A stretch of 23,012 nucleotides of DNA from a virus: positions 1-23,012 of IMG/VR virus record IMGVR_UViG_3300034082_002406; one strand, written 5' to 3'. A program made the position numbers and the translations under genes. The notes below the pieces were generated by a model that was given only the letters and a program-made list of their open reading frames with translations, ran no database searches and was not told where the DNA came from. Of this stretch, positions 2,940 through 23,012 are shown piece after piece; the first letter of the stretch is position 1; each line of letters begins with the position of its first letter.

Positions 2940-3026
2940 TGGTAGAGGCGGTGGGATTTGAACCCACAATGCCGTGAGGCCACCAGATTTTGAGTCTGAC
3001 GCGTATGCCAGTTCCGCCACGCCTCC
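2940..3026 (-). tRNA. tRNA-Leu(CAA)
   Basis: The minus strand folds into a complete tRNA. The acceptor is GGAGGCG/CGCCTCT with one terminal G-U pair, and the D-stem is GCG/CGC. The anticodon stem is TCAGA/TCTGG around loop CTCAAAA, giving anticodon CAA. A 15-base variable arm with a GCC/GGC stem is typical of leucine tRNA, and the T-arm is GTGGG-TTCAAAT-CCCAC. The discriminator A and the CCA end (2942-2940) are encoded. It reads UUG codons. The first base follows the stop codon of the deaminase gene with no gap, so maturation must cut the mRNA end off exactly. Confidence 0.93.
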
Positions 3027-3448: not shown

Positions 3449-3525
3449 TGGTGTAAGCGGCAGGACTCGAACCTGCACCCAGCCTGTTATGAGCAGGCCG
3501 CTCTACCAAATTAAGCTACGCTTAC
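3449..3525 (-). tRNA. tRNA-Met(CAT), possibly tRNA-Ile2
   Basis: The minus strand gives a 77-base cloverleaf. Its acceptor is GTAAGCG/CGCTTAC, its anticodon stem GCCTG/CAGGC has loop CTCATAA (anticodon CAT), and its T-arm is GCAGG-TTCGAGT-CCTGC. The discriminator A and CCA end (3451-3449) are encoded. A G1-C72 pair is present, so this is not an initiator tRNA. Elongator Met is the default call. A lysidine-modified tRNA-Ile reading AUA has the same DNA anticodon and cannot be ruled out. The 5' end overlaps the stop codon of the neighbouring 77-aa gene. Confidence 0.92.
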
Positions 3526-9390: not shown

Positions 9391-11027
9391 TAACCCCACA
9401 ACTCCAACTCAGCGTAGTCGCCTCTAGCAGAGATACCGCGCACAATAAAAGCCTTTCCGTTTGCCAACGTAGGGATGCCGGGCCACCTTAGCGTAACTGT
9501 CGTGCCTATTGGAATAGTCCACCAATTAAGGCCCCCCGCCCTAGGACCAACACGTGCGGACCATGTGCGGCGGGGCACTTTGTATATTTCTAGCAAAGAC
9601 TGCGCCAAAGTAGAGGCGGCGGTCTGGGATTCCAAAACCCCTGGTAATTCAGGACCATCAACCGCCAAGGGATACCTGGTTCTAACCGTAATATCAGAAG
9701 CAACAGCGAAGCGGCGTTTCTTCCCATAATACTCTTGTATATGGGTAGAAGCTGCTGCGGCTATATCCCCGCCTTCCTGCGTCGTCTCAATTTCTTGATA
9801 CGACACCTTTACCCGCCACCAAGGGGGCATAGAACCTGATGTTTCTTCTGGTGCGCTGATTTGCATATACGGCTCGATAGCGATAGTAGAAGTGGTGGCG
9901 ACAGGAGCGTAGATTATGCTGCCTTCAAACTGACCAAGCGTATTAGCGCCCCACCATGCGGAACCAAGGCCTGCGGCCAGTTGGTTCATAGCATCTTCGA
10001 CTGTGCCTTCCCGAACGATGATGCCTACCTCTTCTTGAGGCCATGCCGTAAACGAGGAAGCAGTCGCACTCGCCACCCCGCCGATCACTCGCAAGATTTG
10101 CGCGGCGACGTGGCTGGCAGTAGAGACGTAACCTCCGTCTTTTTCTCCACGCACGTCCGAAGTTAAGAATACAGGGTCGTCGTGGAGTTTGATAAATCCG
10201 CCGCCTTTATATGAAGCATATTTGCCAGATCCGGGGTTCTCCGCGACCAAGGAGGCGTATGAGCTTGCATCCGCGTGTAATATTAGATTGAGGCCGCCAT
10301 CTCGCACCGCTACAATTTGTTGAACCGCTCCGTCATGTAGTTGATATATTCGATTTACGTCATCTATCAGAACGGGCTGCATATTTCGCACAAAGCCAAA
10401 AATACGCGGCTTAGCCACGCCTTCGAGGCCTGTGCTTCCCTCTGTCCCGCCCGCCCCCGTGTAAAGGGTATTGGCAGTGGTCTGTAAGTCAGCAGCAGCC
10501 GAACGCAGCGGCATACGCAGGGTGTCAGTGCCCTCAAAGGCTTCTGAGGCGCGAAGGGAGGCGACCTCTACCCAAGTGGACCGTGGGGCGTGTGTGGGGC
10601 GCCTGTGGGGCGCCCTGGTTAGCTTGACCCGGCGCCCCGCCACCGCCCATTCGCCTGCAATGGTATCTAGCGCGCCATCCGTGTTCGAGAAACGCAGTTC
10701 GCCCGATTCGATTTGAGCGCGCCTGCCTTCTCCGGGGTAGACAGGGATGAAGCGTTCGACCGCAGGGGGTTCGAGCATACGGGGTGGATAGACGGCAATG
10801 GTGCCGGTGTCACCGGGTTCCTGCACCCAGCCACGATCAGAAGCCACGATAGTAGGCGCTGTGGCGACTGAAGAACCTCGTGTGTCTATCGCTGCCATAG
10901 GGGCACCGGAGGGCATAAATAAAGGGGGTGGACGAGGATCGCCAACGCCTTCAGGATCAGGGTTGATCTCAATAAGCCAAACAGACTCTTCAATCGCGGC
11001 GCTAGCCGCCGTAATAGTTACGCTCAT
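9390..11027 (-). CDS. Putative tail-tip (hub) protein
   Basis: This 545-aa protein follows the tape measure gene with an ATGA overlap. It contains GEGRRAQIESGELRFSNTDG (about 99-118), the stretch TGAGGTEGSTGLEGVAKPRI (about 188-207) and NMQPVLIDDVNRIYQLHDG (about 214-232). These resemble a tail protein I recall from alphaproteobacterial phages. A later part (WWRVKVSYQEI, about 398-408; WSARVGPRAG, about 488-497) resembles the beta-barrel arms of hub proteins. Position supports a distal-tail or hub role, but no Dit, Tal or gpJ signature is clear. The product is probably beta-rich and contains no visible enzyme motif. Confidence 0.55.
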   Translation of the reverse strand: MSVTITAASAAIEESVWLIEINPDPEGVGDPRPPPLFMPSGAPMAAIDTRGSSVATAPTIVASDRGWVQEPGDTGTIAVYPPRMLEPPAVERFIPVYPGEGRRAQIESGELRFSNTDGALDTIAGEWAVAGRRVKLTRAPHRRPTHAPRSTWVEVASLRASEAFEGTDTLRMPLRSAAADLQTTANTLYTGAGGTEGSTGLEGVAKPRIFGFVRNMQPVLIDDVNRIYQLHDGAVQQIVAVRDGGLNLILHADASSYASLVAENPGSGKYASYKGGGFIKLHDDPVFLTSDVRGEKDGGYVSTASHVAAQILRVIGGVASATASSFTAWPQEEVGIIVREGTVEDAMNQLAAGLGSAWWGANTLGQFEGSIIYAPVATTSTIAIEPYMQISAPEETSGSMPPWWRVKVSYQEIETTQEGGDIAAAASTHIQEYYGKKRRFAVASDITVRTRYPLAVDGPELPGVLESQTAASTLAQSLLEIYKVPRRTWSARVGPRAGGLNWWTIPIGTTVTLRWPGIPTLANGKAFIVRGISARGDYAELELWG

Positions 11028-14000
11028 TGCGCCCTCAGACGAGCCGTGCGGAGTTCTTCACGAAGCCCTCCCACCTGTACTCGAAGTTCGGCAATGGCTT
11101 CAACTAACCCTGTGCTTTCTTTGCTATCCGAATCCGCCGTAACCTCACGGAGCGAGACAATCTCATCGCGGACTGCGCGTAATTCAGAGACAACGGCGTG
11201 GTTATCGGAACCATTAACCTCAACGCCAAGGCGCCCATCGGAACCACGGCGCAAGGGCATAATGGCTTCGGGGCCTGCTTCGCCAAAGAGGGCCATAGGC
11301 GCAAGCGTGGGACTATTCACGTAGTCAGGGATGCCGCCGTTGGCGTAGGCCATGACGCGGCCATATTTCATGACGGCGCCTAGTGCGGCAGGCATCGCGC
11401 CCTGTGATTCTATGCTTCCACCGAAACTACCGCTCGAATTGGAATCTGGACCCGTATAATCCCCAAAACCTACGCTTCCTGAAGAAATTGATACGTTTTG
11501 GTTTGCCTGTTCCACCGCAGCTTGGATCGCCTCTGCAATTGGCAGCAATTCAGCCAACTTACTATCAAACCGCTTGGTGTATTCCGCAGTTTCGGCAATC
11601 GCGGCGTTGGTGCGTAGGTTGGTCATTTCAGCGACCAAGGGCACGCTCGCCAAGTCAGGAAGGCTCTGCTGCGAGATAGGCGTTGTCGAAAGAGATTCTA
11701 GGCCCGAGACAACACGGCCACGGATGTCGTGGAATCCGCCTGTAGAGGCATATACTTCGCGAGCTAGATTGAGGAGCGTGTCTGCCGATTGCGTGATGCG
11801 GTTGAGCGCATCCACGTTGCCCGTTTGGGCCTCCGCCAAGTCGCGGGTAAATAGTTCTTGTGCGGCGCCCAAGCGCCCCATGGTAGTTGTGCCTGACAGC
11901 GGGCTGCTGGTGCGAAGCGAATCAAGATAATCGCGGATATTCTTATTAGAATCCTTCAGAATCTTAACTCGTTCTGCGGCCTGTGTCCTTTCAAGTTCAA
12001 CAAGCAGTCGAGACTTTTCTCCCGCCGTGATCCCTAGCGCGTCAAGCGAGGCGGTGAAGGATTCAATTTCCTTCTGAGTCTTATAAGCAAGCTCGATGCG
12101 CTGCGCCTCTTGGTCCATGCCTTCCGCCATGAGACGGCGCACGTGCATTTCAAGGGCGGTGTCACGGATAGTCAGGCTGCGTTGTTCTTCCAGCTTGGCG
12201 ATTTGCTTGTCTCGTGCAGCCAAAAGTTCTTCTTCGCCAATGCCATACTCACGGGCTTTGGCTGTGGCTTGCGCGAAGGAGTCAATCAGCGCGTCCATCT
12301 GCTTCTTGAACTCAGGCACGGGGTCCGCAGTCAGGCCCTTAATGGTGTCTTGTAGGGCGATAAAGCCGTCCACAAACTCTTGCAGCTTTTCAGGACCGGC
12401 AAAGGAACGAGTTGAAAGCGCCTTATTCAATTCTTCGTTGGCCGTAGCCGCAAACTTTAGAGAACCGAGAGCTTCGTTGAAACTTGCCGCTTCGCCGTAG
12501 CCAAGGTTGCCCATGCCATATTTGTTGCCACCCACAGAGCGGGCGCCGGATACCGTGAGGCCACGTTGCTTTAGATAGGCGTTGATAGCCGGTATCTTAG
12601 CGTTTGCTTCTTCAAACTGAGCGCGACCTTGTTCATTGTAATATATGCCCTTCATGGCAAGTTGACCGTCCTGTGACTCCAGGCCGTAACTAAAGCCGTT
12701 GCTGGAAGGCTTGGGACCGAAGAGGCCGCCTAGACCGCCGCCCGCTGCGCCGCCAATGAGGCCGCCAAGCAAAGTGCCAACGCCGGGGAAGATGCTGCCA
12801 AGGATAGCGCCCGCACCAGCGCCAAGGCCGCTTCCCACCATACCGCCAGTCTGATTGCCGCCCAACAAGGAGTTAACGAACATGCCTGCGCCAAAACCTG
12901 CGCCCGCGCCACCAAGCAAACTACCAAGGGAGGCCCCTGATCCACCGAATAAACCGAGGCCCCCCGCTGCTTCAAGTTGCGCTAATGATGCAGGCCCATA
13001 GGCGCCCCCCATTGCGCCTAACGCAGAACTGGTAGAAGTGCCGATCCCTGGTATGATTGTAGAACTTAACAACCCACCAGAGCCAGTCAACCCCAACGAA
13101 CCAAAAATACCTTCCTTCGGGATAAGCGAAGATAGGCCCAACATCTGCATGATGCCGCCACCGCCACCCGCCGCAGCCCCCGCTGCCGCAGCGCCACCAC
13201 CACCCATGACTGATAGGCCCAATCCCAAAGTCGGGAGCATGGTGCCAGAGAAGATCGAATTGATGATCGGGTTTACGACGCCAAGGCGTAGGATAGATTG
13301 GACAATGGACGACATGACGCCACGGATGACGTTGCCAAAGTTAAGAGCGCGGATTTCACCCTTAGCAAAGGCTTCTGTAATGGCGTCGCCAACTTGCTCA
13401 AAGGCGCGAACGCCGATGTTGGCCATCTCTTTATAAGAGTTATCGAGTTGGTCAGTTTCTTGACGAATACGGACAATTTTACGGGCTTGGTCTTCTGCTG
13501 CTAATATAACGTCAGGAGCGCGGCCTTCAGCTTGCTGGCGAGCGCGGAAAGCGGCAAGCTCCTGCTCTCGCAGATTTATGTTCATTCCGATAAGGCTTCG
13601 CTCTTTTTCAAGTAGAGCGATTTCTTGCTCGCGCTGTTTGGTGTTGGCTTTTACCGCCTCGGTGTCTTTTTCTTGATCTGACCTTTGGCGCATCAGAGGC
13701 AAGATGGCCGCAAGTGCTTTTCTATATTCTTCGGAACCCTTGGTGCCGTAATCAAGCGCCTTGGTCTGCGCCTTGATCTGCACTTCCATATCGTCGCCAG
13801 CAAGCGTGCTTTGCTTGTAGGCTTCTAGGAGTCCTTGGTGCGTTGCTATTTCGATTTCTAGCGTTTCGGTGTATTTACGTAGGCTTTTTTCTGTGCCAGT
13901 TATCTTTTTGTCATTTTTGGCGAGTGCTTCGTCGTAATCTTTTAAGACACGAGCAGCATCTTGATCCCCCGCGTTTGCCCGAACTCTTACCGAAGCCAAA

Positions 14001-16612
14001 AAAGCGGTGGTGTCCGTAAGAGCCCTCGCGCTTCCCGTAACCTGCCGATATGCGTCTTGGAGGACTTTTAGACCTGCGTTTTGGTCCTGTATCGCCCGTA
14101 CGCTTTTATAATCTCGAAAATTAAACACAGGCCCTTGAATTGGTTCAGAAGGAGGAGGCGACGGAATACTGCCACCGCTCTCCAAGCCAGCCGCCTCTGC
14201 GCGCATTGCTGCCACTTGGCCCCTGGCGGTAATAATTGCGTTGGTCAATCCCGCAAACTGTTGGATTCCTTTTATAAGGCTTGTAGCGCTAAAATTTTCC
14301 GGGTTTGAGAGCAACGTGATAAGTTGGTTCGCGGGAGTAATCGCGCCTGAAAAACCACTAGTAAGTTTTTTTAGTTCATTAGAATATTCAACAAGGGTAA
14401 TATTTGAGGTCAAGAAACTTTCGTTCAATTGAGCAAAAGTCTCAAGCGCCGCAGGGTCTATAGAAAGTTTGCTATAAATTGCATTTATCTGATTAGCAAA
14501 ATTTGTCTGGAAATTATTTGTCAGACGCTCATAAGCAGCGTTTTCACTATCCTCCATCTTTTTAATTTCTTTTTCACGCTCGGCAGCGTTCGCTCTAAGC
14601 GCCTTGCCCAAAGCAACAGAAGCTGCAAATCCCATTTTCTCATAGGCTGCCGCAAGTTGTTCTAGATCGCTTTTAGCAGAGGAAGCCATATTGTTGACAC
14701 TGCTTGCAACCGCGTTATTAGCTGCCTCCACTTGGCTCTTGAGACGAGTATAGGTTTGCTCAAACGATTTAATATCCTGGTCGAAAAGTGCGAACTCCCG
14801 CTCTGGCGACCGGAATACATACGCGATAGCCACGCCAACCGCTGCGACCGCTGCCGCAACCGCGAGCCACTTAGAAGCAAGACCGATCAAAAGTCGCGTT
14901 GCGCCAACAAGTGCGAAACCAGAAAGCGCGCCAACAAGGAGGTCTACGTTGTTTGCCAAGAGCAAAGTCGCTTTGGCTAGTTCTTCTACAATCCCGCTCT
15001 CTCGCGCGGTTTTAATAAGTTCTCTAAATTGGTCGGTTGCGGAAATGATGGCTTGATCGAACCCTCCTTCCTTGAAAACCATATTTACACGAGTCAATTC
15101 AGTTCCGAGTCGCCCGAATGCGGCTTGGACAGATTGCGACGTTCTTCCGAGTGTGTCAGCACCACCAGACAGAAGATAAATTTGACGAACAAACTCAGTG
15201 CCGTAGCGGGCTACGTCGATTGAACCTTCTTCAAACCGCTTATTAAGGTCGCTTGTCTTTCCGTCTACCTTTGTGACCGCGCGCTCAAGTGCTGCCATAG
15301 CCACAGGAAGTCGGTCGCCCATCTGAAGACGAACTTCTTCTGCCATGAACTTGCCCTTAGACATGGACTGTTCAAGAGCGCGGATGACGCCCATCGTATC
15401 GGCGGAAGATAGGCCAAAGTTACGAGCGGCAGAAGTTAGGTTCGAGAAAACTTCTTGAGTTTGACCGCCTGTAAATCCCGCCCCTTTCATCGCCAACGAC
15501 AGCCGGGCAAAAGAGTTACCTACTTCACCAACAGCAAAGCCGACTCGGTCTGCTTCAGACATTAAGAAGTTTAGATTACGTTGGAAGTCCAGACTGCCGT
15601 TGGAAACAGTTTTAAGGCTATTGATAAACTTGTCAATTTCAAGACCCGCTTGAATGATTTCACGTAGACCAAGCGCACCAGACAGGGCGCTCAGTGCCGC
15701 AGTCGTACTAAAAACAACACGACTAAAACCACCCATAGACGCATTAGCAGCGCCAAAGGCGGCAGAAATTGTGCGGGCATTGTCACTGATACGAGGCAGA
15801 AGGCCCCCTAGTTTAGCGATGCTCCCGCTTGCCGCTTGCGTCGCACGATCAAACTCTCCTTTTGCCCTTGCAGCTTCAAGAGAATTGACGCCATATTTTT
15901 TAAGAACACCCGAATATCTATCTAGAGCCTGTAGCGATTGAGATGATATCCCAGATGCGATATCTACAGGCAACTGCCGTCCTGCGCGTCCTACAATACC
16001 CGCAATGCGACTTTGTGCCTGTTGCATGACCCGCTCAAGAGCAAGCGTGTCTTTGATTTCTTGTTGCCGCGCCTTCTCCGCCGATTTAGAAGCTCTTTCA
16101 GCAGATTTAGTTGCGGCGTCTTGCTCTCTTTCGCTTTTCCGTCTTTCTGCATTTCGTTGATTCTCAAGTCTAACTACAGCCTCAATACCTGTCTTAGTCT
16201 GCTCAATCGCTTGATTGTAGCGGCGCGTTGCCCGGTCTATCTGGATTGTAGTCGCGTTGACGTTGCTTGCCACGCGGTTATACTGCTCAAAAGCACGATT
16301 GACGCGGTTCATAGTATCCGCGCGCATACCTTCTGACAAAGCGTGTTTATTAACTAGACGGGTAATTTGTTCATACTTCTTAGCGCCGTCCTCAAGGCGC
16401 TTTTCCATTTTTGCAAACGCGCTCTCGCTCTTTGAAGCCCACTTTTCAAGCGACTGCGAGGACTGAGACTGTTTTGCAGACGCCGCGCCGATATTGCTTA
16501 CAGACTTCTCTACCTTAGCCGCAGTCGCAGCAAGCGCGTCAAGCGCCTTTACTGCGGCGCTGACCGACTTGGTATCGACTTTGACTGTAAGATTAGCAAC
16601 TGAATCCGACAA
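11024..16612 (-). CDS. Tape measure protein
   Basis: This is the largest gene of the window, 1862 aa. The N-terminal 300 residues are charged coiled coil. Residues ~310-510 form a typical tape-measure domain (IDKFINSLKTVSNGS, SLAMKGAGFTGGQTQEVFSN, ALEQSMSKGKFMAEEVRLQM). Hydrophobic helices lie at ~555-600. A long glycine/alanine-rich zipper region spans ~1134-1300. The C-terminus has FGEAGPEAIMPL (about 1770-1781), common in tape measures, and a final coiled coil. It sets tail length and probably helps DNA cross the membrane. The start is TTG 16612, with GGGGG five bases upstream; no better in-frame start is near. Confidence 0.93.
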   Translation of the reverse strand: MSDSVANLTVKVDTKSVSAAVKALDALAATAAKVEKSVSNIGAASAKQSQSSQSLEKWASKSESAFAKMEKRLEDGAKKYEQITRLVNKHALSEGMRADTMNRVNRAFEQYNRVASNVNATTIQIDRATRRYNQAIEQTKTGIEAVVRLENQRNAERRKSEREQDAATKSAERASKSAEKARQQEIKDTLALERVMQQAQSRIAGIVGRAGRQLPVDIASGISSQSLQALDRYSGVLKKYGVNSLEAARAKGEFDRATQAASGSIAKLGGLLPRISDNARTISAAFGAANASMGGFSRVVFSTTAALSALSGALGLREIIQAGLEIDKFINSLKTVSNGSLDFQRNLNFLMSEADRVGFAVGEVGNSFARLSLAMKGAGFTGGQTQEVFSNLTSAARNFGLSSADTMGVIRALEQSMSKGKFMAEEVRLQMGDRLPVAMAALERAVTKVDGKTSDLNKRFEEGSIDVARYGTEFVRQIYLLSGGADTLGRTSQSVQAAFGRLGTELTRVNMVFKEGGFDQAIISATDQFRELIKTARESGIVEELAKATLLLANNVDLLVGALSGFALVGATRLLIGLASKWLAVAAAVAAVGVAIAYVFRSPEREFALFDQDIKSFEQTYTRLKSQVEAANNAVASSVNNMASSAKSDLEQLAAAYEKMGFAASVALGKALRANAAEREKEIKKMEDSENAAYERLTNNFQTNFANQINAIYSKLSIDPAALETFAQLNESFLTSNITLVEYSNELKKLTSGFSGAITPANQLITLLSNPENFSATSLIKGIQQFAGLTNAIITARGQVAAMRAEAAGLESGGSIPSPPPSEPIQGPVFNFRDYKSVRAIQDQNAGLKVLQDAYRQVTGSARALTDTTAFLASVRVRANAGDQDAARVLKDYDEALAKNDKKITGTEKSLRKYTETLEIEIATHQGLLEAYKQSTLAGDDMEVQIKAQTKALDYGTKGSEEYRKALAAILPLMRQRSDQEKDTEAVKANTKQREQEIALLEKERSLIGMNINLREQELAAFRARQQAEGRAPDVILAAEDQARKIVRIRQETDQLDNSYKEMANIGVRAFEQVGDAITEAFAKGEIRALNFGNVIRGVMSSIVQSILRLGVVNPIINSIFSGTMLPTLGLGLSVMGGGGAAAAGAAAGGGGGIMQMLGLSSLIPKEGIFGSLGLTGSGGLLSSTIIPGIGTSTSSALGAMGGAYGPASLAQLEAAGGLGLFGGSGASLGSLLGGAGAGFGAGMFVNSLLGGNQTGGMVGSGLGAGAGAILGSIFPGVGTLLGGLIGGAAGGGLGGLFGPKPSSNGFSYGLESQDGQLAMKGIYYNEQGRAQFEEANAKIPAINAYLKQRGLTVSGARSVGGNKYGMGNLGYGEAASFNEALGSLKFAATANEELNKALSTRSFAGPEKLQEFVDGFIALQDTIKGLTADPVPEFKKQMDALIDSFAQATAKAREYGIGEEELLAARDKQIAKLEEQRSLTIRDTALEMHVRRLMAEGMDQEAQRIELAYKTQKEIESFTASLDALGITAGEKSRLLVELERTQAAERVKILKDSNKNIRDYLDSLRTSSPLSGTTTMGRLGAAQELFTRDLAEAQTGNVDALNRITQSADTLLNLAREVYASTGGFHDIRGRVVSGLESLSTTPISQQSLPDLASVPLVAEMTNLRTNAAIAETAEYTKRFDSKLAELLPIAEAIQAAVEQANQNVSISSGSVGFGDYTGPDSNSSGSFGGSIESQGAMPAALGAVMKYGRVMAYANGGIPDYVNSPTLAPMALFGEAGPEAIMPLRRGSDGRLGVEVNGSDNHAVVSELRAVRDEIVSLREVTADSDSKESTGLVEAIAELRVQVGGLREELRTARLRAQ

Positions 16613-16614
16613 CC

Positions 16615-17106
16615 CTACCCCCGTCTAGTCGATCTCTTTGGCGCAGGCATCTGTTCAGATTTCTTTGACGCATCTTTAGCGGCCCTGGCGGCTTTGGCGA
16701 GGTCGGCTTGGGCTTCAAGAAATGCGGTGTCAATTACTTTTATAGCGCGTATCTCATGCGGAAGCAATACGCGGCCTGATAGGCGGATATAGGCCTCTAT
16801 TTCTAAATAAGTGATCGGGTTTGACGAGAACCCATTTGACCCACGGGTTGATTGTAGGTCAACGAAACTCCCCCACGCAAAAGTAAATTCTTCTGGCATG
16901 GGTGGCAAGTCTAGCCGCGCCTCAATCTCAAGCCTCTGCTGCTTTGAGGCGCTATCCGTTCTGCGACTAACCGCAGATAGGGCGCGAGTGAGGCTATCCG
17001 CCTCACTCGACCCGTCTTCTTTCTTCAGATTAAGCGCGAAATAACGTTCCGCGTGTTCTTTGAGAAAAGTTAAGCTATCTTCAAAGAAACGTGGCGCGGT
17101 CGTCAA
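16615..17106 (-). CDS. Tail assembly chaperone, distal part (gpT-like)
   Basis: This frame of up to 163 aa contains PITYLEIEAYIRLSGRVLLP followed by HEIRAIKVIDTAFL (about 96-129), a pattern typical of the second tail assembly chaperone part. It ends in a lysine-rich tail. It directly precedes the tape measure gene and overlaps the first chaperone gene by 26 bases in another frame. The only start near its beginning is TTG 17106, with GAGG three bases upstream, which is poor. The frame is open upstream through 17083, so expression as a +1 frameshift fusion with the first chaperone (about 288 aa) is an attractive alternative. Confidence 0.75.
   Translation of the reverse strand: MTTAPRFFEDSLTFLKEHAERYFALNLKKEDGSSEADSLTRALSAVSRRTDSASKQQRLEIEARLDLPPMPEEFTFAWGSFVDLQSTRGSNGFSSNPITYLEIEAYIRLSGRVLLPHEIRAIKVIDTAFLEAQADLAKAARAAKDASKKSEQMPAPKRSTRRG
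17080..17086 (-). promoter_or_regulatory. Candidate +1 programmed frameshift site CTT-TGA-A
   Basis: The last sense codon and stop of the first chaperone gene read CTT TGA, followed by A. This is the same CUU-UGA slip site used in bacterial prfB (RF2), where tRNA-Leu shifts +1 onto UUU. A +1 shift here enters the second chaperone frame at GAA. The AGGGGG-like stimulator of prfB is missing; the nearest purine-rich element, AAGGAG, is about 36 bases upstream. The match is seen directly; its use is inferred from the G/GT system of other siphoviruses. Confidence 0.5.
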
Positions 17107-17482
17107 GCGCCTCGCTGACCTGCTCCTTGATCCACGAGAAGCGAAGGTCCGAGTAGATCGTGCGCGCAGTCGTATCGTTCAGCGGCGCGTTCAGCGGGCT
17201 ACCATCGAGTCCTACCAGATACCAGTCCTTCGTGGCGGCAACAAGTGCCTCAGCACGCTCAGCCTCAAGCTCGTCAGCGGTCATGGTGACGCGCCCACGC
17301 ATCTTCAGACGCTTGTTGAGTGCTGCCTTCTGCACCTTCTGCACTTCGGGGCTGTCAAGGCTGACCACGGAAATGAAGGCTTCCTTACCCGCAGCGTCGC
17401 GCAAAGGCTGGCGCGTCTTTGGGTGTAGGATGGTGATAGGGACGGCGTTGGAAACATCGACGGCGAGGGCGTCTAGTGACAT
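17081..17482 (-). CDS. Tail assembly chaperone, proximal part (gpG-like)
   Basis: This 133-aa protein starts SLDALAVDVSNAVPITILHP. It has a beta-rich first part (KEAFISVVSLDSPEVQK, about 33-49), a basic helix and a WYLVGLDGSPL region (about 88-98), then a mostly helical end. The order tail tube, this gene, overlapping second gene, tape measure is the standard position of the chaperone pair that coats the tape measure before tube polymerisation. ATG 17482 is chosen with AGGAGG 11 bases upstream. The frame upstream to 17536 lacks a good start. The 86 bases between this start and the stop of the tail tube gene hold no other gene. Confidence 0.75.
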   Translation of the reverse strand: MSLDALAVDVSNAVPITILHPKTRQPLRDAAGKEAFISVVSLDSPEVQKVQKAALNKRLKMRGRVTMTADELEAERAEALVAATKDWYLVGLDGSPLNAPLNDTTARTIYSDLRFSWIKEQVSEALDDRATFL

Positions 17483-17568
17483 GAGAAGCGAGACCTCCTG
17501 GGTCTTTTCAAGGTGGGACCAAAAGTGTTTTGGCAAAGGAACAACGCCAAGTCAAGCGCAAACGTATT

Positions 17569-20076
17569 TTAAGTCGTAAGAGCGCGTAATTCACTGTCAG
17601 AGTAAAAGTAGTTTGAGAGCGTAGCTGAGCGCGCCCAGCCTATGGTGTGGTTGAAGTTGCCCCAAGGAGCGCTTAACACTGCTACGATTGTCATAGCAGC
17701 ATAGCCTGCGCGTGCAAACGTAGATGCGGTAAGTGCTGCTCCGTTTATTGAATATCGGGCACCTGCATAATTGATTGAGGCGCCTATTTTATTGGTGGTG
17801 AAAGCGGGGCGTAGTTGAGCGGATATGTCGACGCCTGTGTTGTCAGATGTATTTACAATATAGGTAAAGGAAGGAGCAAAGTAAGATACATTGCTAAAAG
17901 AGCCCCCAGATGTCCCACCGAATACAGGGGAGCCGCCTTGCGAGTTGCTTGCAGACAAAAATTCAACCGAATACGTATATCCGTTGGGTGATTGGAACCA
18001 AGGTGCATTTGCACTTAGACTATAAGTTAAGCGGTCAGCAGCGCGAGTGACTGTTGCTCCTGAAGTCTTGATCGGGCTGGTGATCGTATTGCCTAGTTCT
18101 AGTTGTGGTAGGCCAAAACGCAACGTAAAGTCCCATGCTGTTGCTGATGGATTTATAACAAAACGCATTTGCTCGTTTGTTGTTCCTGCGTTTATATTTG
18201 TTCTTGATACAGTAACCCGCTGCGTTCGGAGCGCGGCGCCAGTTACTGTGCTTCTTATATCGACCGTAGTTTGAGAAACACCGGGGAACTCATAAACTCT
18301 CGGACCTATTGTCCCTAAACCTGTAAAAGAACCCGCGACTAATTTTAGAAAAACGGAGCCCACCCACACCTGCCCGTTTGCCGCAGAAGCATGAGTCCCT
18401 CCGTCTAGGACTAATTCAAATGCAGATTCTCCGCCGTTTCCCGCCCACCTTATATCAATATATTCGATACCGTCTTCTGTTCCGGTCCCCACGATTTGCC
18501 GAGTTACGCTTGAAGTTGTGCCTCCGCTCCAAGTCGTAGGTAGTGTCCCCGGCGTTCCTGCCACGGTGGCGCTAGCAATATTGTTGCGAACCCAATTTGT
18601 GCGGGAGGGTTCTAACGCCAAGCCTCGCAACGCCAAACCATTTGGGTCACAGTCTACCCGCGCAACATCCGCACTCGCAACAGTCAAAACACCTGAACTA
18701 TTGAAATACGTAGCGTTGCTGGCGCGGCTGTAGGTCCATCCTGAAGGCACGCCAGTTAGAAAACTAAAAGTCTGCGTCCTAGGGACTAAGTTGCTTGCTT
18801 GGATATAAATAGGCGCCGTGCCCTGTTGCGGATTTGCCGGAAGTGGTGTCAACGCCACAAATGGAAGTGAGACAGTAATCCCGCTATCCGAAGAAGTATC
18901 TACTTCCCCACCAGAATATTTTAGACGTGGAATGACGATGCTTATGAATTTTGTATCCGCGTCTAGGGCCTGTGTATTCTGCAATTGCAGTATAAGTTTG
19001 GATTCTGTCTCTTGAATAAACTTATCGAAAGCGGATGAACTTGAAAAAAGAACGCTAATCTGCCCCGTTACTTCTACAAATCGTCCGAAGAAGATATTAG
19101 ATACAGTTTCGGAGCCCACCGTCTGCGGCGCCAACATGCTGTTGTTGATCGAAATTTCAGCCGCAGTAACCACGCCAAGGACATTGCTGCCTTCAAAAAG
19201 TGTGCCATTTATGGCGGTGTAAGGCGTTGTTTGTTCGGTATCGGGTGGTGGATAGTTTTCGGTGATACGAAAATCACCGCTCTCACCTACCCTTATATCC
19301 CCGCTTTCTGTAACGCGGATTCCCGCGTATATGGCGCTTGTAGAGGAAAAAGAAGAAGCGTCTCGGCCTATGAGATTAAAAGAAAGAGTAGCGAGGCCAG
19401 AAGCGGGCACAGAGAACGTGGTTTGATTAACTCGGATACCCCTGAACTGCTGGTAGAGATTGAGGTCTGAAAGCCAACGTTCAATAGTAAAGGAATGATA
19501 CGTGCCTTCAAGAGATGCCTTGCGCCCTACTTCATATACGCGATTGACAGCCACACTCGAAGAAGTAAATGTAAGGGTTCCGGGCTCCACTTTGATTGTC
19601 GAAGAAGAAACGCTGACTGCGGTAAGGTAGACGCCTGTTATACCTGCCACTGGTCCGTTTGGGGAGGTAAGATAGAAAATCTCGCCTTCTCTGAAACCGT
19701 TAGATATCAGGTTATATCCCGCAGTGGCGCAAGTGATGCGGTTGTTCGTTGCATCAACACTCGCCGTAAACGCACTCGCAATAGGGGCAGCAGTTGCCCA
19801 TGTTCCGCCTATGGCCGCTTCAAGCAGATCGTCCCAAGACTGCTCTGAAATTTCGCCTAAAATGTCACCAGATACACTTTTATATCCGTGAAATAAATTT
19901 TGCCGCACGCGAGATGAGAGCCGTGCGTCCGGTTGCCTGATTTCTTTTTGAAGGTTGACGTTAAGATTTATATCGCGGATACGCTTAAACGGTTGGCCTA
20001 CAGGCGTAGAGCCAAAGACGCTTTCCGCGACATAACTGTATTCGGCAAGCGAGCCTGTTGCGATACTACCGCTCAT
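17569..20076 (-). CDS. Tail tube-like protein with long glycan-binding-like extension (copy 3)
   Basis: Residues 1-427 of this 835-aa protein match the neighbouring tail-tube copy. They include SEQSWDDLLEAAIGGTW (78-93), a beta insert at about 105-185, ERWLSDLNLYQQFRG (199-213) and IPRLKYSGGEVD (382-393). From about 430 an extension begins with SGWTYSRASNATYF, passes through LEPSRTNWVRNN (488-499) and GATVTRAADRLTY (about 684-696), and ends SDSELRALTT. These motifs are common in phage fibre and adhesin modules with lectin-like folds. Copy 3 alone has a repeat RVTESGD/RVGESGD at 254-268. It is presumably a decorated tube subunit; its amount in the virion is unknown. Confidence 0.75.
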   Translation of the reverse strand: MSGSIATGSLAEYSYVAESVFGSTPVGQPFKRIRDINLNVNLQKEIRQPDARLSSRVRQNLFHGYKSVSGDILGEISEQSWDDLLEAAIGGTWATAAPIASAFTASVDATNNRITCATAGYNLISNGFREGEIFYLTSPNGPVAGITGVYLTAVSVSSSTIKVEPGTLTFTSSSVAVNRVYEVGRKASLEGTYHSFTIERWLSDLNLYQQFRGIRVNQTTFSVPASGLATLSFNLIGRDASSFSSTSAIYAGIRVTESGDIRVGESGDFRITENYPPPDTEQTTPYTAINGTLFEGSNVLGVVTAAEISINNSMLAPQTVGSETVSNIFFGRFVEVTGQISVLFSSSSAFDKFIQETESKLILQLQNTQALDADTKFISIVIPRLKYSGGEVDTSSDSGITVSLPFVALTPLPANPQQGTAPIYIQASNLVPRTQTFSFLTGVPSGWTYSRASNATYFNSSGVLTVASADVARVDCDPNGLALRGLALEPSRTNWVRNNIASATVAGTPGTLPTTWSGGTTSSVTRQIVGTGTEDGIEYIDIRWAGNGGESAFELVLDGGTHASAANGQVWVGSVFLKLVAGSFTGLGTIGPRVYEFPGVSQTTVDIRSTVTGAALRTQRVTVSRTNINAGTTNEQMRFVINPSATAWDFTLRFGLPQLELGNTITSPIKTSGATVTRAADRLTYSLSANAPWFQSPNGYTYSVEFLSASNSQGGSPVFGGTSGGSFSNVSYFAPSFTYIVNTSDNTGVDISAQLRPAFTTNKIGASINYAGARYSINGAALTASTFARAGYAAMTIVAVLSAPWGNFNHTIGWARSATLSNYFYSDSELRALTT
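18650..18810. repeat. Diverged tandem duplication, best-conserved DNA segment (partner about 21412-21575)
   Basis: The segment coding for the junction between the tube domain and the extension is strongly similar at DNA level in both long copies. Stretches such as CGCACTCGCAACAGTCA and GAAGGCACGCCAG are shared almost in register. Much of the remaining sequence is similar only at protein level. This marks an old gene duplication with slower divergence, or recent gene conversion, at the domain boundary. Boundaries given are approximate, judged by eye. Confidence 0.55.
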
Positions 20077-20108
20077 CGCCTCGCTTTTTCACCCCATCAC
20101 TGAATAAG

Positions 20109-20387
20109 TTAAAACCAAAGCCTGCGTGGGTTTTGCGGGGAGACTTCCGAAGCCGCAAATACAGGGTTCATCTCGTTCTTCCAAGCCATGTTAACATGAT
20201 ATCCTGGCAGAACAATAGGGGGGCCATCTTCGCTCTCTTGGTCGATTAGAGTGCCGATGTCGTCAATAGCGTCGCCTTCATTCGGGCAAGGGACGCCTTC
20301 ATAGAATTGAAAACCTGCGTCGAGGCATGTTTGAAGAAAAGCATCTCTATCGTCAAAGCGATGGAAAGAGTAGATATATTTACTCAT
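20109..20387 (-). CDS. Small protein between two tail tube copies, 92 aa
   Basis: The product begins MSKYIYSFHRFDDRDAFLQT and has an acidic middle (about 39-54, IDDIGTLIDQESED). It ends with YHVNMAWKNEMNPVFAAS followed by EVSPQNPRRLWF, a C-terminal pattern I have seen in small proteins beside phage fibre genes. No function is established. Its ATG overlaps the stop of the upstream tail tube copy (ATGA). It ends 32 bases before the next copy. The position suggests a chaperone or connector for the extension-bearing tube proteins (inference). Confidence 0.75.
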   Translation of the reverse strand: MSKYIYSFHRFDDRDAFLQTCLDAGFQFYEGVPCPNEGDAIDDIGTLIDQESEDGPPIVLPGYHVNMAWKNEMNPVFAASEVSPQNPRRLWF

Positions 20388-22780
20388 GTGACTAGCGCTT
20401 TCAACTCTGCGTCTGAATAATAGTAGTTGCTAAGGGCGGCGCTACGTGCCCATCCTGCTGCGAAATTTGCGGCTAACCAAGGTGAACTTAACACAGCGAA
20501 AGTCGTCATCAAAGGATATCCCTGGTTGGGTACGAGGCGAGTATTGTTGTTAAGGCCGAATCTAGCACCGCTGTAATTTATAGAAACAGCCGCTCTATTT
20601 ATTTGAAGTTCAGTATTGAGCGATAAAGAGGCGCCTACGCCATTTGTGTTCACTCTATAGTTGAACGCACTTGTGAGATAACTCGTATTGTCGAACGATC
20701 CCGCCGCCATTCCAAAGAATACGGCGCCCCCTTGTGAATTGCTAGGCGATATAAAATCAAGAGAGTATGTATATCCGCTTGACGATTGAAACCAAGGCGC
20801 GTTGGCAGCGAGGTCGTATGTCAAACGATCAGCGGCGCGGGTTACAGTGGCGCCTGAAGTTCTAATAGGGCTTGTAGCGAACGAGCCCAATTCAAGTTGT
20901 GGAAGACCGACGCGAAGCGTGAAGTCAGCCACGCCGCTCGTTGTAATACGGGTAAGATTGCCGACAGATGTCGTAGTGCCGAGAACCCGTGCGTGAGTGA
21001 CACGCTGAGTTCTAAGTGCGGCATTAGTAGGGGTGAAAGCAGTAAAAGACGAGCCGCTGCTGTCCGTCACGCTAATCCGCATTTCAGATACGTTAGTAAG
21101 AGAACCACCTGCTAATTTGAAATAAGAGGCTGTTGTCCAGCTTTCTCCTGTAGATGCAGTAGTTGTATAGCCCCCCATCATGCTTATATCTATTATAGCG
21201 GCGCCAGAAGTTGTGAATCGGTAGTCAATAAACTCTATACCATCCTCTGTTCCTATAGAAACGATTGTTTTAAGGGTGACGTTACCGCCCGCGCCCGTAG
21301 TTGACCATCCTGTGGATGGGTCAGTGCCAGGAGTGCCTGCGACTGCGCCCACCATTGTATTGTTTCTGATAGAATTTACCCGGCTTGGTTCACAGAGCAG
21401 ACCTCGCACCGCCAACCCACTTGGGTCGTAATCAACTCGCGCCACACCCGCACTCGCAACAGTCAGAACACCTGTGCTGCTGAAATAGGTGGCGTTACTA
21501 GCGCGGCTGAAGGTCCAGCCAGAAGGCACGCCAGACAAAAAATTGAACACCTCAGTCCGAGGGACAACGTTGCTTGCTTGAATGAAAAGGGAAGTAGAAC
21601 CCTGCGCTGGATTAATTGATAGAGGGGCCAAGGCAATAAACGGCAAAGTCAGTGTCACACCGCCTTCTACACCGTCGTCAATATCGCCCCCGGAGTATTT
21701 GATACGCGGCAGAACGAGGTTGATGAATTGCGTGTCTTGGTCAAGCACGTCTTTATTTTGTAGGCGGATAACCAAACTAGATTCAACTTGGTCTACGAAC
21801 TTATTAAGTGCGCTTGCATCAGAGAAAAGAACCGTGATGGTCCCGGTCACGTCCGCGTATCTGCCAAACAAGATATCAGGAACGATGTTGGAGCCGACAA
21901 CTTGAGAAGAAGCCATGTTGTTGTTGAGGGTGATTTCCGCAGCCGTCACGAGGCCTAGAACCTGTCCTCCTTCAAACAACGCGCCATTTACCGCAGCAAA
22001 AGGCGTTGTCTGCGGCGCTTCTGAGTAAACTGAGGCAACCGTAGTAGAAGAAAATATGGTTGCGTCTTGCCCTAAAACACCAAAGGTCAAGGAAGCAAGG
22101 CCAGAGGCGGGGATAGAAAAAGTGACTTGGTTTATACGGACGCCGCGAAACTGCTGATATAGGTTCCTGTCAGTCAACCAACGCTCGAAGGTGAAAGAGC
22201 GGTATGTGTTGCCGATAGAAACTTTACGGCCTACTTCATAAATCCGAGCAACCGAGACAGATGCCGCCGTTGTCGTAATCGTATTTGGCTCAACTTCAAT
22301 CGTAGAAGCAGTGACACTCAATACTGTGAGGTATTCACCGCTAAAGCCAGAGACGGGACCGGGGTTTGTTACGACAAAAAATACGTCGCCAACCGTAATT
22401 CCGCTGGTAAGAAAATCAAAAGAAGAAGTTAGCGAAGTGATCTTATTGGCAGTAGAGTCGATGCTGATATTGAGGGTAGTAGACACAGGGGTAATATTAG
22501 CCCAAGTGCCCCCTATAACTGCCTCTAGGAAATCATCCCATGACTGCTCAGATATATCACCGTTCACTTCGCCAGCTACGGAGCGATACCCGTGCCTCGC
22601 GTCTTGGCGCATACGGTCTGTTTTACGTTCTTCGGATTGGTAAATTTCTTTTTGTAGGTTTAGTGAAAAGCCAACGTCGCGAACTTTTTTGAAAGCGCGG
22701 CCAGTTGGGGTCGAGCCAAAAACGACTTCAGACGTGTATCCGTATTCTACAAGTGATCCAGCCGCAATACTGCCACTCAT
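20384..22780 (-). CDS. Tail tube-like protein with long glycan-binding-like extension (copy 2)
   Basis: This 798-aa protein is paralogous to copy 3 along its whole length. Residues 1-402 are tail-tube-like: QSWDDFLEAVIGGTW (79-93), a GDVFF beta insert (131-165), ERWLTDRNLYQQFRG (199-213) and LPRIKYSGGDIDD (357-369). An extension with GWTFSRASNATYFSS, LCEPSRVNSIRNN and RAADRLTYDLAANAPWFQSS follows, ending SDAELKALVT. The N-terminal part should polymerise like other tube proteins, with the extension outside, as C-terminal Ig-like domains do in lambda gpV. The ATG has TAGGA close upstream. It comes directly after the hairpin behind copy 1. Confidence 0.75.
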   Translation of the reverse strand: MSGSIAAGSLVEYGYTSEVVFGSTPTGRAFKKVRDVGFSLNLQKEIYQSEERKTDRMRQDARHGYRSVAGEVNGDISEQSWDDFLEAVIGGTWANITPVSTTLNISIDSTANKITSLTSSFDFLTSGITVGDVFFVVTNPGPVSGFSGEYLTVLSVTASTIEVEPNTITTTAASVSVARIYEVGRKVSIGNTYRSFTFERWLTDRNLYQQFRGVRINQVTFSIPASGLASLTFGVLGQDATIFSSTTVASVYSEAPQTTPFAAVNGALFEGGQVLGLVTAAEITLNNNMASSQVVGSNIVPDILFGRYADVTGTITVLFSDASALNKFVDQVESSLVIRLQNKDVLDQDTQFINLVLPRIKYSGGDIDDGVEGGVTLTLPFIALAPLSINPAQGSTSLFIQASNVVPRTEVFNFLSGVPSGWTFSRASNATYFSSTGVLTVASAGVARVDYDPSGLAVRGLLCEPSRVNSIRNNTMVGAVAGTPGTDPSTGWSTTGAGGNVTLKTIVSIGTEDGIEFIDYRFTTSGAAIIDISMMGGYTTTASTGESWTTASYFKLAGGSLTNVSEMRISVTDSSGSSFTAFTPTNAALRTQRVTHARVLGTTTSVGNLTRITTSGVADFTLRVGLPQLELGSFATSPIRTSGATVTRAADRLTYDLAANAPWFQSSSGYTYSLDFISPSNSQGGAVFFGMAAGSFDNTSYLTSAFNYRVNTNGVGASLSLNTELQINRAAVSINYSGARFGLNNNTRLVPNQGYPLMTTFAVLSSPWLAANFAAGWARSAALSNYYYSDAELKALVT

Positions 22781-22811
22781 TTCCTACTCCCCGCATCCCG
22801 CCACTAAGCCC

Positions 22812-22847
22812 TGTCGATGGCAAAGAGTTGCCCCTTTGCCATCGACA
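22812..22847 (-). terminator. 14-bp hairpin between tail tube copies 1 and 2
   Basis: A perfect 14-bp stem (TGTCGATGGCAAAG at 22812-22825 with CTTTGCCATCGACA at 22834-22847) with an 8-base loop lies 9 bases after the stop of copy 1. Downstream on the minus strand there is no T-run, so it is more likely a 3'-end stabiliser or partial attenuator. It could make copy 1 the abundant subunit and lower the expression of the genes after it (inference). Confidence 0.6.
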
Positions 22848-22856
22848 AGAACCCCA

Positions 22857-23012
22857 TTAGGCATTACCGCGTTGAATAGAAATAGACGAAGTGCCCTGCG
22901 TGACATTGGCAGCGATAGGCTTCAGCGCCACGAAAGGCATGGTCACTGTGATGCCAGTATCAGGGCTGTCATCAACGTCACCGCCGCTATACTTGATACG
23001 GGGCAACACGAT
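22857..23012 (-). CDS. 3' end of short tail tube protein (copy 1, probable major tail protein)
   Basis: The window shows the last 51 residues, IVLPRIKYSGGDVDD through VALKPIAANVTQG to SISIQRGNA and a TAA stop. They align with residues ~355-403 of copy 2 and ~380-428 of copy 3, but the protein ends exactly where the other two begin their extensions. It is therefore the plain form of the tube subunit and the best candidate for the major tail tube protein. The start lies outside the window. A strong hairpin follows its stop. Confidence 0.8.
   Translation of the reverse strand: MVLPRIKYSGGDVDDSPDTGITVTMPFVALKPIAANVTQGTSSISIQRGNA

Follow-up and report, generated by a model that had tools for sequence, protein, structure and literature searches.

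What does a phage gain from keeping several tail tube genes side by side, two of them drawn out by some 400 residues? For long-tailed phages, the determinants of host specificity are as a rule looked for at the tail tip. In the DNA analysed here, the 23,012-base IMG/VR virus record IMGVR_UViG_3300034082_002406 (hereafter the window), fast-changing and probably glycan-binding modules are carried on tail tube paralogs, in separate genes. All genes concerned lie on the minus strand and, counted from the right end, follow each other in the order copy 1, copy 2, a 92-aa ORF, copy 3, two chaperones and the tape measure gene, with the following features.

22857..23012, minus strand: copy 1, represented by the final 51 aa of an unextended tail tube protein (IVLPRIKYSGGDVDDSP...QRGNA, then stop)
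20384..22780, minus strand: copy 2, tube paralog with predicted adhesin extension, 798 aa
21581..22780, minus strand: tube domain of copy 2, residues 1-400 (PF18906, E 1e-32; phrog_290, E 3e-55)
20906..21373, minus strand: cassette V1 of copy 2, approximately residues 470-625, allele A, CBM-like jelly roll (NF048003; CBM4/16/28/61 folds)
20387..20782, minus strand: cassette V2 of copy 2, approximately residues 667-798, allele a, LamG/ConA-like domain (fold model; Laminin_G_3)
20109..20387, minus strand: 92-aa partner ORF (phrog_18574, E 1e-6)
17569..20076, minus strand: copy 3, tube paralog with predicted adhesin extension, 835 aa
18802..20076, minus strand: tube domain of copy 3, residues 1-425 (PF18906, E 9e-26)
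17572..18801, minus strand: extension of copy 3, residues 426-835, V1 allele B and V2 allele b
17081..17536, minus strand: tail assembly chaperone 1 (phrog_313; synteny)
16615..17106, minus strand: tail assembly chaperone 2 (Phage_TAC_18; synteny)
11024..16612, minus strand: tape measure protein (TMP_3; synteny)

Elsewhere in the window, scaffold-like and P22-type major capsid genes occupy the plus strand (756-2884), the tail genes being on the minus strand, and a dCMP-deaminase-like gene lies between tRNA-Leu(CAA) (2940-3026) and tRNA-Met(CAT) (3449-3525).

An earlier sequence-only reading had described three tandem tube genes. Within the window copy 1 is reduced to its C-terminal 51 residues, but the gene is complete in another IMG/VR contig (L002, 3300044546_000409), where copy 1 has 399 aa, ends in QRGNA and carries no extension. 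As L002 is 99.8% identical to the window across 10.6 kb, it was not counted as an independent case. Copy 2 begins 76 nt after the stop codon of copy 1, and copies 2 and 3 are both complete ORFs with their own starts; extensions made by frameshifting, of which there is no sign, were therefore rejected, in agreement with the separate genes proposed in the earlier reading. End to end, the two extended copies share 52% identity, including the common motifs, such as SRASNATYF, that this reading had listed. It had overlooked the 92-aa ORF (20109-20387), which shares 4 nt (ATGA) with the end of copy 2 and precedes copy 3. Further downstream, the two chaperone ORFs have 26 nt in common, read in different frames (window 17060-17160), and may be joined by a classical programmed frameshift.

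The suggestion to look for the same three-gene layout in related genomes proved fruitful. Three tube genes arranged as in the window were found in L002, L003, L004 and L011 and, cut by contig ends, in L005, L007 and L012, which makes six additional contigs, all of other metagenomic origin, when L002 is set aside; because of this recurrence an assembly artefact was rejected. Two tube genes, with the 92-aa ORF between a plain and an extended copy, are present in L006, L008, L009, L010, L013, L045 and the cut L033, and a single tube gene of 398-399 aa in L014-L019, L032, L034 and L036. The available sequence of the one-gene contigs, which may be fragmentary records, contained no adhesin module. 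Wherever the locus is complete a plain tube copy of 398-400 aa was found, and its constant presence points to the plain copy as the major subunit. Chaperones and tape measure followed the tubes in all checked contigs that reach that far. The tape measure gene (L002 14200-16800) falls to ~50% identity against L003 and L011, while neighbouring tail genes remain at 94-100%.

The N-terminal parts of copies 2 and 3 were correctly recognized as tail tube homologues. PF18906 (Phage_tube_2) matches residues 8-383 of copy 2 (114 bits, E 1e-32) and residues 8-408 of copy 3 (92 bits, E 9e-26) over model positions 1-266, against a curated cut-off of 27 bits. The tubes of the window belong to PHROG 290 (phrog_290) and have no match to phrog_2645, and PDB chain 8xan_B, ‘Major tail structural protein’, is found with E 3e-41 by a tube-domain profile and with E 1e-35 by copy 1 alone, the window family having an extra insert at approximately residues 98-183 relative to that chain. 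A full-length AlphaFold model of copy 2 (30 close rows) reached a mean pLDDT of only 39.8, with most of the tube part below 50, so that the assembly competence of the tube parts rests on homology. In addition, copy 3 of the window and L002 carries a short tube-domain insert at residues ~248-275 (~19250-19335) with an imperfect repeat (IRVTESGDIRVGESGDFRITEN); it is missing from copy 3 of L006, and the lengths of other copies suggest its gain or loss among relatives.

The tube domains of the three copies differ mutually by ~38-47%, and the duplications must thus be old. Within each copy the differences between contigs are mostly synonymous (pN/pS 0.16 for copy 1, 0.12 for copy 2 and 0.13 for copy 3). 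The tube parts are therefore under strong purifying selection and all three are being kept functional; decaying duplicates were rejected on the ratios of 0.12-0.13. On the other hand, identity with copy 1 in the tube domain is only 53-62% for copies 2 and 3, and these two may not co-assemble freely with it. A profile search of 84,980 prokaryote genomes gave no relatives of the tube. Among deposited phages the Phage_tube_2-type family was found at 690 places in 687 records, with almost always one per record, and a cultured phage arranged exactly like the window was not found.

Folding the extension separately, with 66 diverse rows, gave a model that is rich in beta strands throughout (mean pLDDT 88.4, pTM 0.86). 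In this model the extension is composed of two predicted beta-sandwich domains, one CBM-like and one resembling LamG/concanavalin-A lectins. V1 was confident even within the poor full-length model of copy 2, and its fold matches CBM families 4, 16, 28 and 61 as well as a Klebsiella phage tailspike; the fold of the complete extension is similar to that of CBM22 and LamG domains in tandem. In a viral fold library the full extension was matched by lectin-like and tail-fibre phage proteins, with query TM-scores of 0.70-0.75 for several of the best, whereas single-domain-normalised TM-scores against PDB entries were moderate (~0.5) and thus identify the class of fold, not the ligand.

Sequence comparisons led to the same type of protein. 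The close extensions gave no significant Pfam match, and among the 66 diverse homologues Laminin_G_3 was present in eight and CBM_4_9 in one; no catalytic family was detected by Pfam in the extension or its homologues. Both copies exceed the cut-off of 36 bits for NF048003, the ‘phage head spike fiber domain’ (GTA_spike_fiber), with 51.2 and 47.8 bits, and a match of 56 bits was located at 18037-18615 in the copy 3 extension. As NF048003 also matches prophage-bearing control genomes, it marks a module family and not gene transfer agents (GTAs). A profile of the 66 homologues recovered the RcGTA head-spike fibre Rcc01080 with E 1e-10 (profile positions 3-248), and other relatives include gp49 of Azospirillum phage Cd, proteins of cyanophage S-CAM4 and a Vequintavirus lateral tail fibre. 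The lectin-like character that had been proposed for the extensions is supported by their lectin and carbohydrate-binding-module folds and by homology to a capsule-binding fibre; nothing found here pointed to the binding of mucus that had also been suggested. This relationship to the RcGTA head spike, the shuffling of cassettes and the partner ORF go beyond the earlier reading.

The tube DNA of copy 2 in L003, L004, L005 and L011 shares 98-100% identity with that in L002, whereas in the extension the identity drops abruptly, to lowest values of 51-59% in L004, L005 and L011 and of 63% in L003, and then recovers at the 92-aa ORF. The divergence falls into two cassettes with a conserved linker between them. 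V1 (156-161 aa) exists as alleles A, B and C, and V2 (132-139 aa) as alleles a, b and c; the two cassettes are combined in copy 2 as Aa in the window, Ac in L011, Ba in L004, Bc in L005 and Ca in L003, while copy 3 carries either Bb or Ab. Alleles A and B of V1 each occur on both paralogs, although the underlying tubes are only 54-57% identical, and the copy 2 extension of the window, for example, matches copy 3 of L003 and L006 at ~82% of DNA positions. Alleles common to both paralogs, together with such cross matches, show recombination between phages as well as between paralogs. Third codon positions of copies 2 and 3 are ~60% alike around SRASNATYF as compared with ~30% in the tubes, as expected if this stretch was exchanged more recently. 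The extensions are a recombination hotspot, their cassettes moving from phage to phage and from one extended copy to the other. Recombination of cassettes is a common behaviour of host-recognition modules.

Where might such modules come from? A scan with the module revealed ~70 further loci, none of them with a fusion to a window-type tube. At many of these loci the module is a stand-alone protein of ~390-430 aa that has a short segment at its N-terminus; such genes often stand in tandem, and some lie close to portal or major head protein genes, suggesting that the stand-alone modules are head-spike fibres in many uncultured phages. The corresponding scan of prokaryote genomes gave five distant loci only, in Sterolibacterium, a Comamonadaceae member, Noviherbaspirillum, an unplaced proteobacterium and Pseudoroseomonas. 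Tandem sets of two or three stand-alone modules were seen in L084, L088, L100, L103, L122 and L126; a portal gene lies near the module in L093 and L101 and a P22-like major head gene in L126.

The family of the 92-aa ORF was present at 56 of 71 module loci elsewhere, mostly just downstream of the module and at a distance of no more than 11 nt, the 4-nt overlap being often repeated. This link was established with an iterated profile, the first pass of which gave seven ORFs with E < 1e-3 (best 3e-5). A frequent neighbour of the module, the 92-aa protein is possibly its chaperone or binding partner. The simplest reading, in which we infer the direction of transfer, would be that a duplicated tube gene captured a cassette of module plus partner.

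Taken together, we consider it likely, with a probability of roughly two in three, that copies 2 and 3 are functional minor tube subunits bearing outward glycan-binding adhesins, whose cassettes recombine to change specificity. Copy 1 would be the major tail tube subunit, and copies 2 and 3, as ancient functional paralogs, would co-assemble as minor subunits in its tube, with their two-domain C-terminal adhesins of ~400 residues sticking out from the exterior of the tail shaft. Each adhesin, composed of a CBM-like V1 and a LamG/ConA-like V2, would belong to a family of stand-alone proteins of the head-spike-fibre type, and would hold surface glycans, either capsule or O-antigen, by reversible binding of high avidity that precedes receptor engagement at the tip. 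Exchange of V1 and V2 by homologous recombination at their conserved flanks, within and between paralogs, would renew the glycan specificity on an unchanged tube. The tube homology, the fold and homology of the extension, the purifying selection on the tubes and the shuffling at the hotspot are shown; what we infer for copies 2 and 3 is that they co-assemble, face outward, bind glycans and have a role in host range. The tube proteins of lambda, T5 and YSD1 have their C-terminal domain on the outer side of the tube (PMC9022992), and hence the extensions should likewise be displayed outward; the mixed tubes of the 936 phages and the capsule binding of Rcc01080, both described below, argue by analogy for minor subunits with multivalent shaft adhesins. 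A bolder version of this scheme, in which the shaft is a platform for interchangeable adhesins, each tube paralog offers two cassette slots and a single virion shows several glycan specificities along its length, must be regarded as tentative. If it were true, phage populations would rebuild their adhesin set by recombination, and glycan specificity would be encoded partly by the tube and not by the tail tip alone.

Among other readings, the best-surviving, though still rather improbable, is that of dedicated rings built from copies 2 and 3 at set places next to the tail tip or the neck, with one or two adhesin crowns in place of a scatter along the shaft. Tube paralogs of fixed sequence and two distinct extended copies per genome would fit specialised rings, and distal tail proteins elsewhere are indeed tube-fold homologues with sugar-binding inserts (PMC7291167). 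However, distal proteins are usually encoded after the tape measure gene, whereas copies 2 and 3 stand beside the major tube gene and upstream of the chaperones, and in the mixed tube of the 936 phages the extended subunits spiral along the whole tail (PMC4759559). It is less probable again that the tube-like N-terminal domain of copies 2 and 3 is no tube subunit and serves only to attach adhesin fibres to the tail or the baseplate, an option of a kind that the sequence-only reading had also raised and that would suit the label of PHROG 290, minor tail protein; a complete and strongly conserved tube domain has been kept in both copies, yet for many stand-alone relatives a short N-terminal segment suffices. 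That the extensions are depolymerases and not adhesins, as multi-domain glycoside hydrolases among the fold matches might imply, is very unlikely, since these matches are partial and come together with CBM and LamG domains in isolation, both domains of the extension are beta sandwiches and no catalytic family was found.

Under the preferred reading, that of minor subunits with outward adhesins, the window has several partial counterparts, and the uniqueness implied earlier does not hold: 936-type phages and SPP1 build mixed tubes by frameshifting, and in actinobacteriophages such as Microbacterium phage Damascus the major-tail genes stand in tandem, one of them bearing a long extension. Lambda gpV, T5 pb6 and the tube protein of YSD1/Chi resemble copies 2 and 3 in their C-terminal surface domain but are encoded by one gene, all subunits are decorated, and the domain is small and Ig-like. 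SPP1 assembles two tube subunits, gp17.1 and gp17.1*, one with a surface domain, in a ratio of 3:1 (PMC8718954); there the longer form is a frameshift product with a small FN3 domain. Lactococcal 936 phages combine plain with CBM-extended subunits in a mixed tube, which in some phages shows up as spirals, and the extension of MTP-TpeX binds host cells specifically (PMC4759559, PMC6669499). The likeness lies in a long, variable C-terminal carbohydrate-binding extension and a plain form alongside, although the MTP-TpeX extension arises by a +1 frameshift at the end of a single tube gene, is a BppA-type module and belongs to phages of a Gram-positive host. The carbohydrate-binding type of extension in the SPP1/936 systems is matched in the window by fold and homology.

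Damascus gp17, gp19 and gp20 (L140, 4785-8874) are likewise three tandem tube paralogs encoded by separate genes before the tape measure gene. Only one of them is long, the middle gp19 (609 aa), whose C-terminal extension of ~390 aa has a relative in a minor tail protein from phage MementoMori. The Damascus tubes match phrog_2645 (511 places in 275 actinobacteriophage records), a family unrelated to that of the window by profile search, and the tandem set is apparently an independent case, for which the papers found contain no functional study.

For the module itself, Rcc01080 of RcGTA is the relevant comparison. It binds the capsule of R. capsulatus (PMC10218006, PMC7296036) and, like NF048003, is a homologous, beta-rich, two-domain adhesin module (E 1e-10). 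Unlike the window module, which starts where a complete tube domain ends and is fused to tube subunits, it is anchored to the head by an N-terminal peptide of ~10 residues (PMC7296036). We found no papers in the open-access literature on head-spike-type adhesins on tube paralogs or on cassette shuffling between them. Mixed tubes with sugar-binding extensions are already known, and the notable points here are the source of the module and the swapping of its cassettes. GTA head spikes and tail decorations are thereby linked as versions of one movable adhesin cassette, and since a deletion of the extended copies could leave the essential tube intact, the role of tail-shaft decorations becomes directly testable in a system where the shaft probably carries changeable host-grabbing modules.
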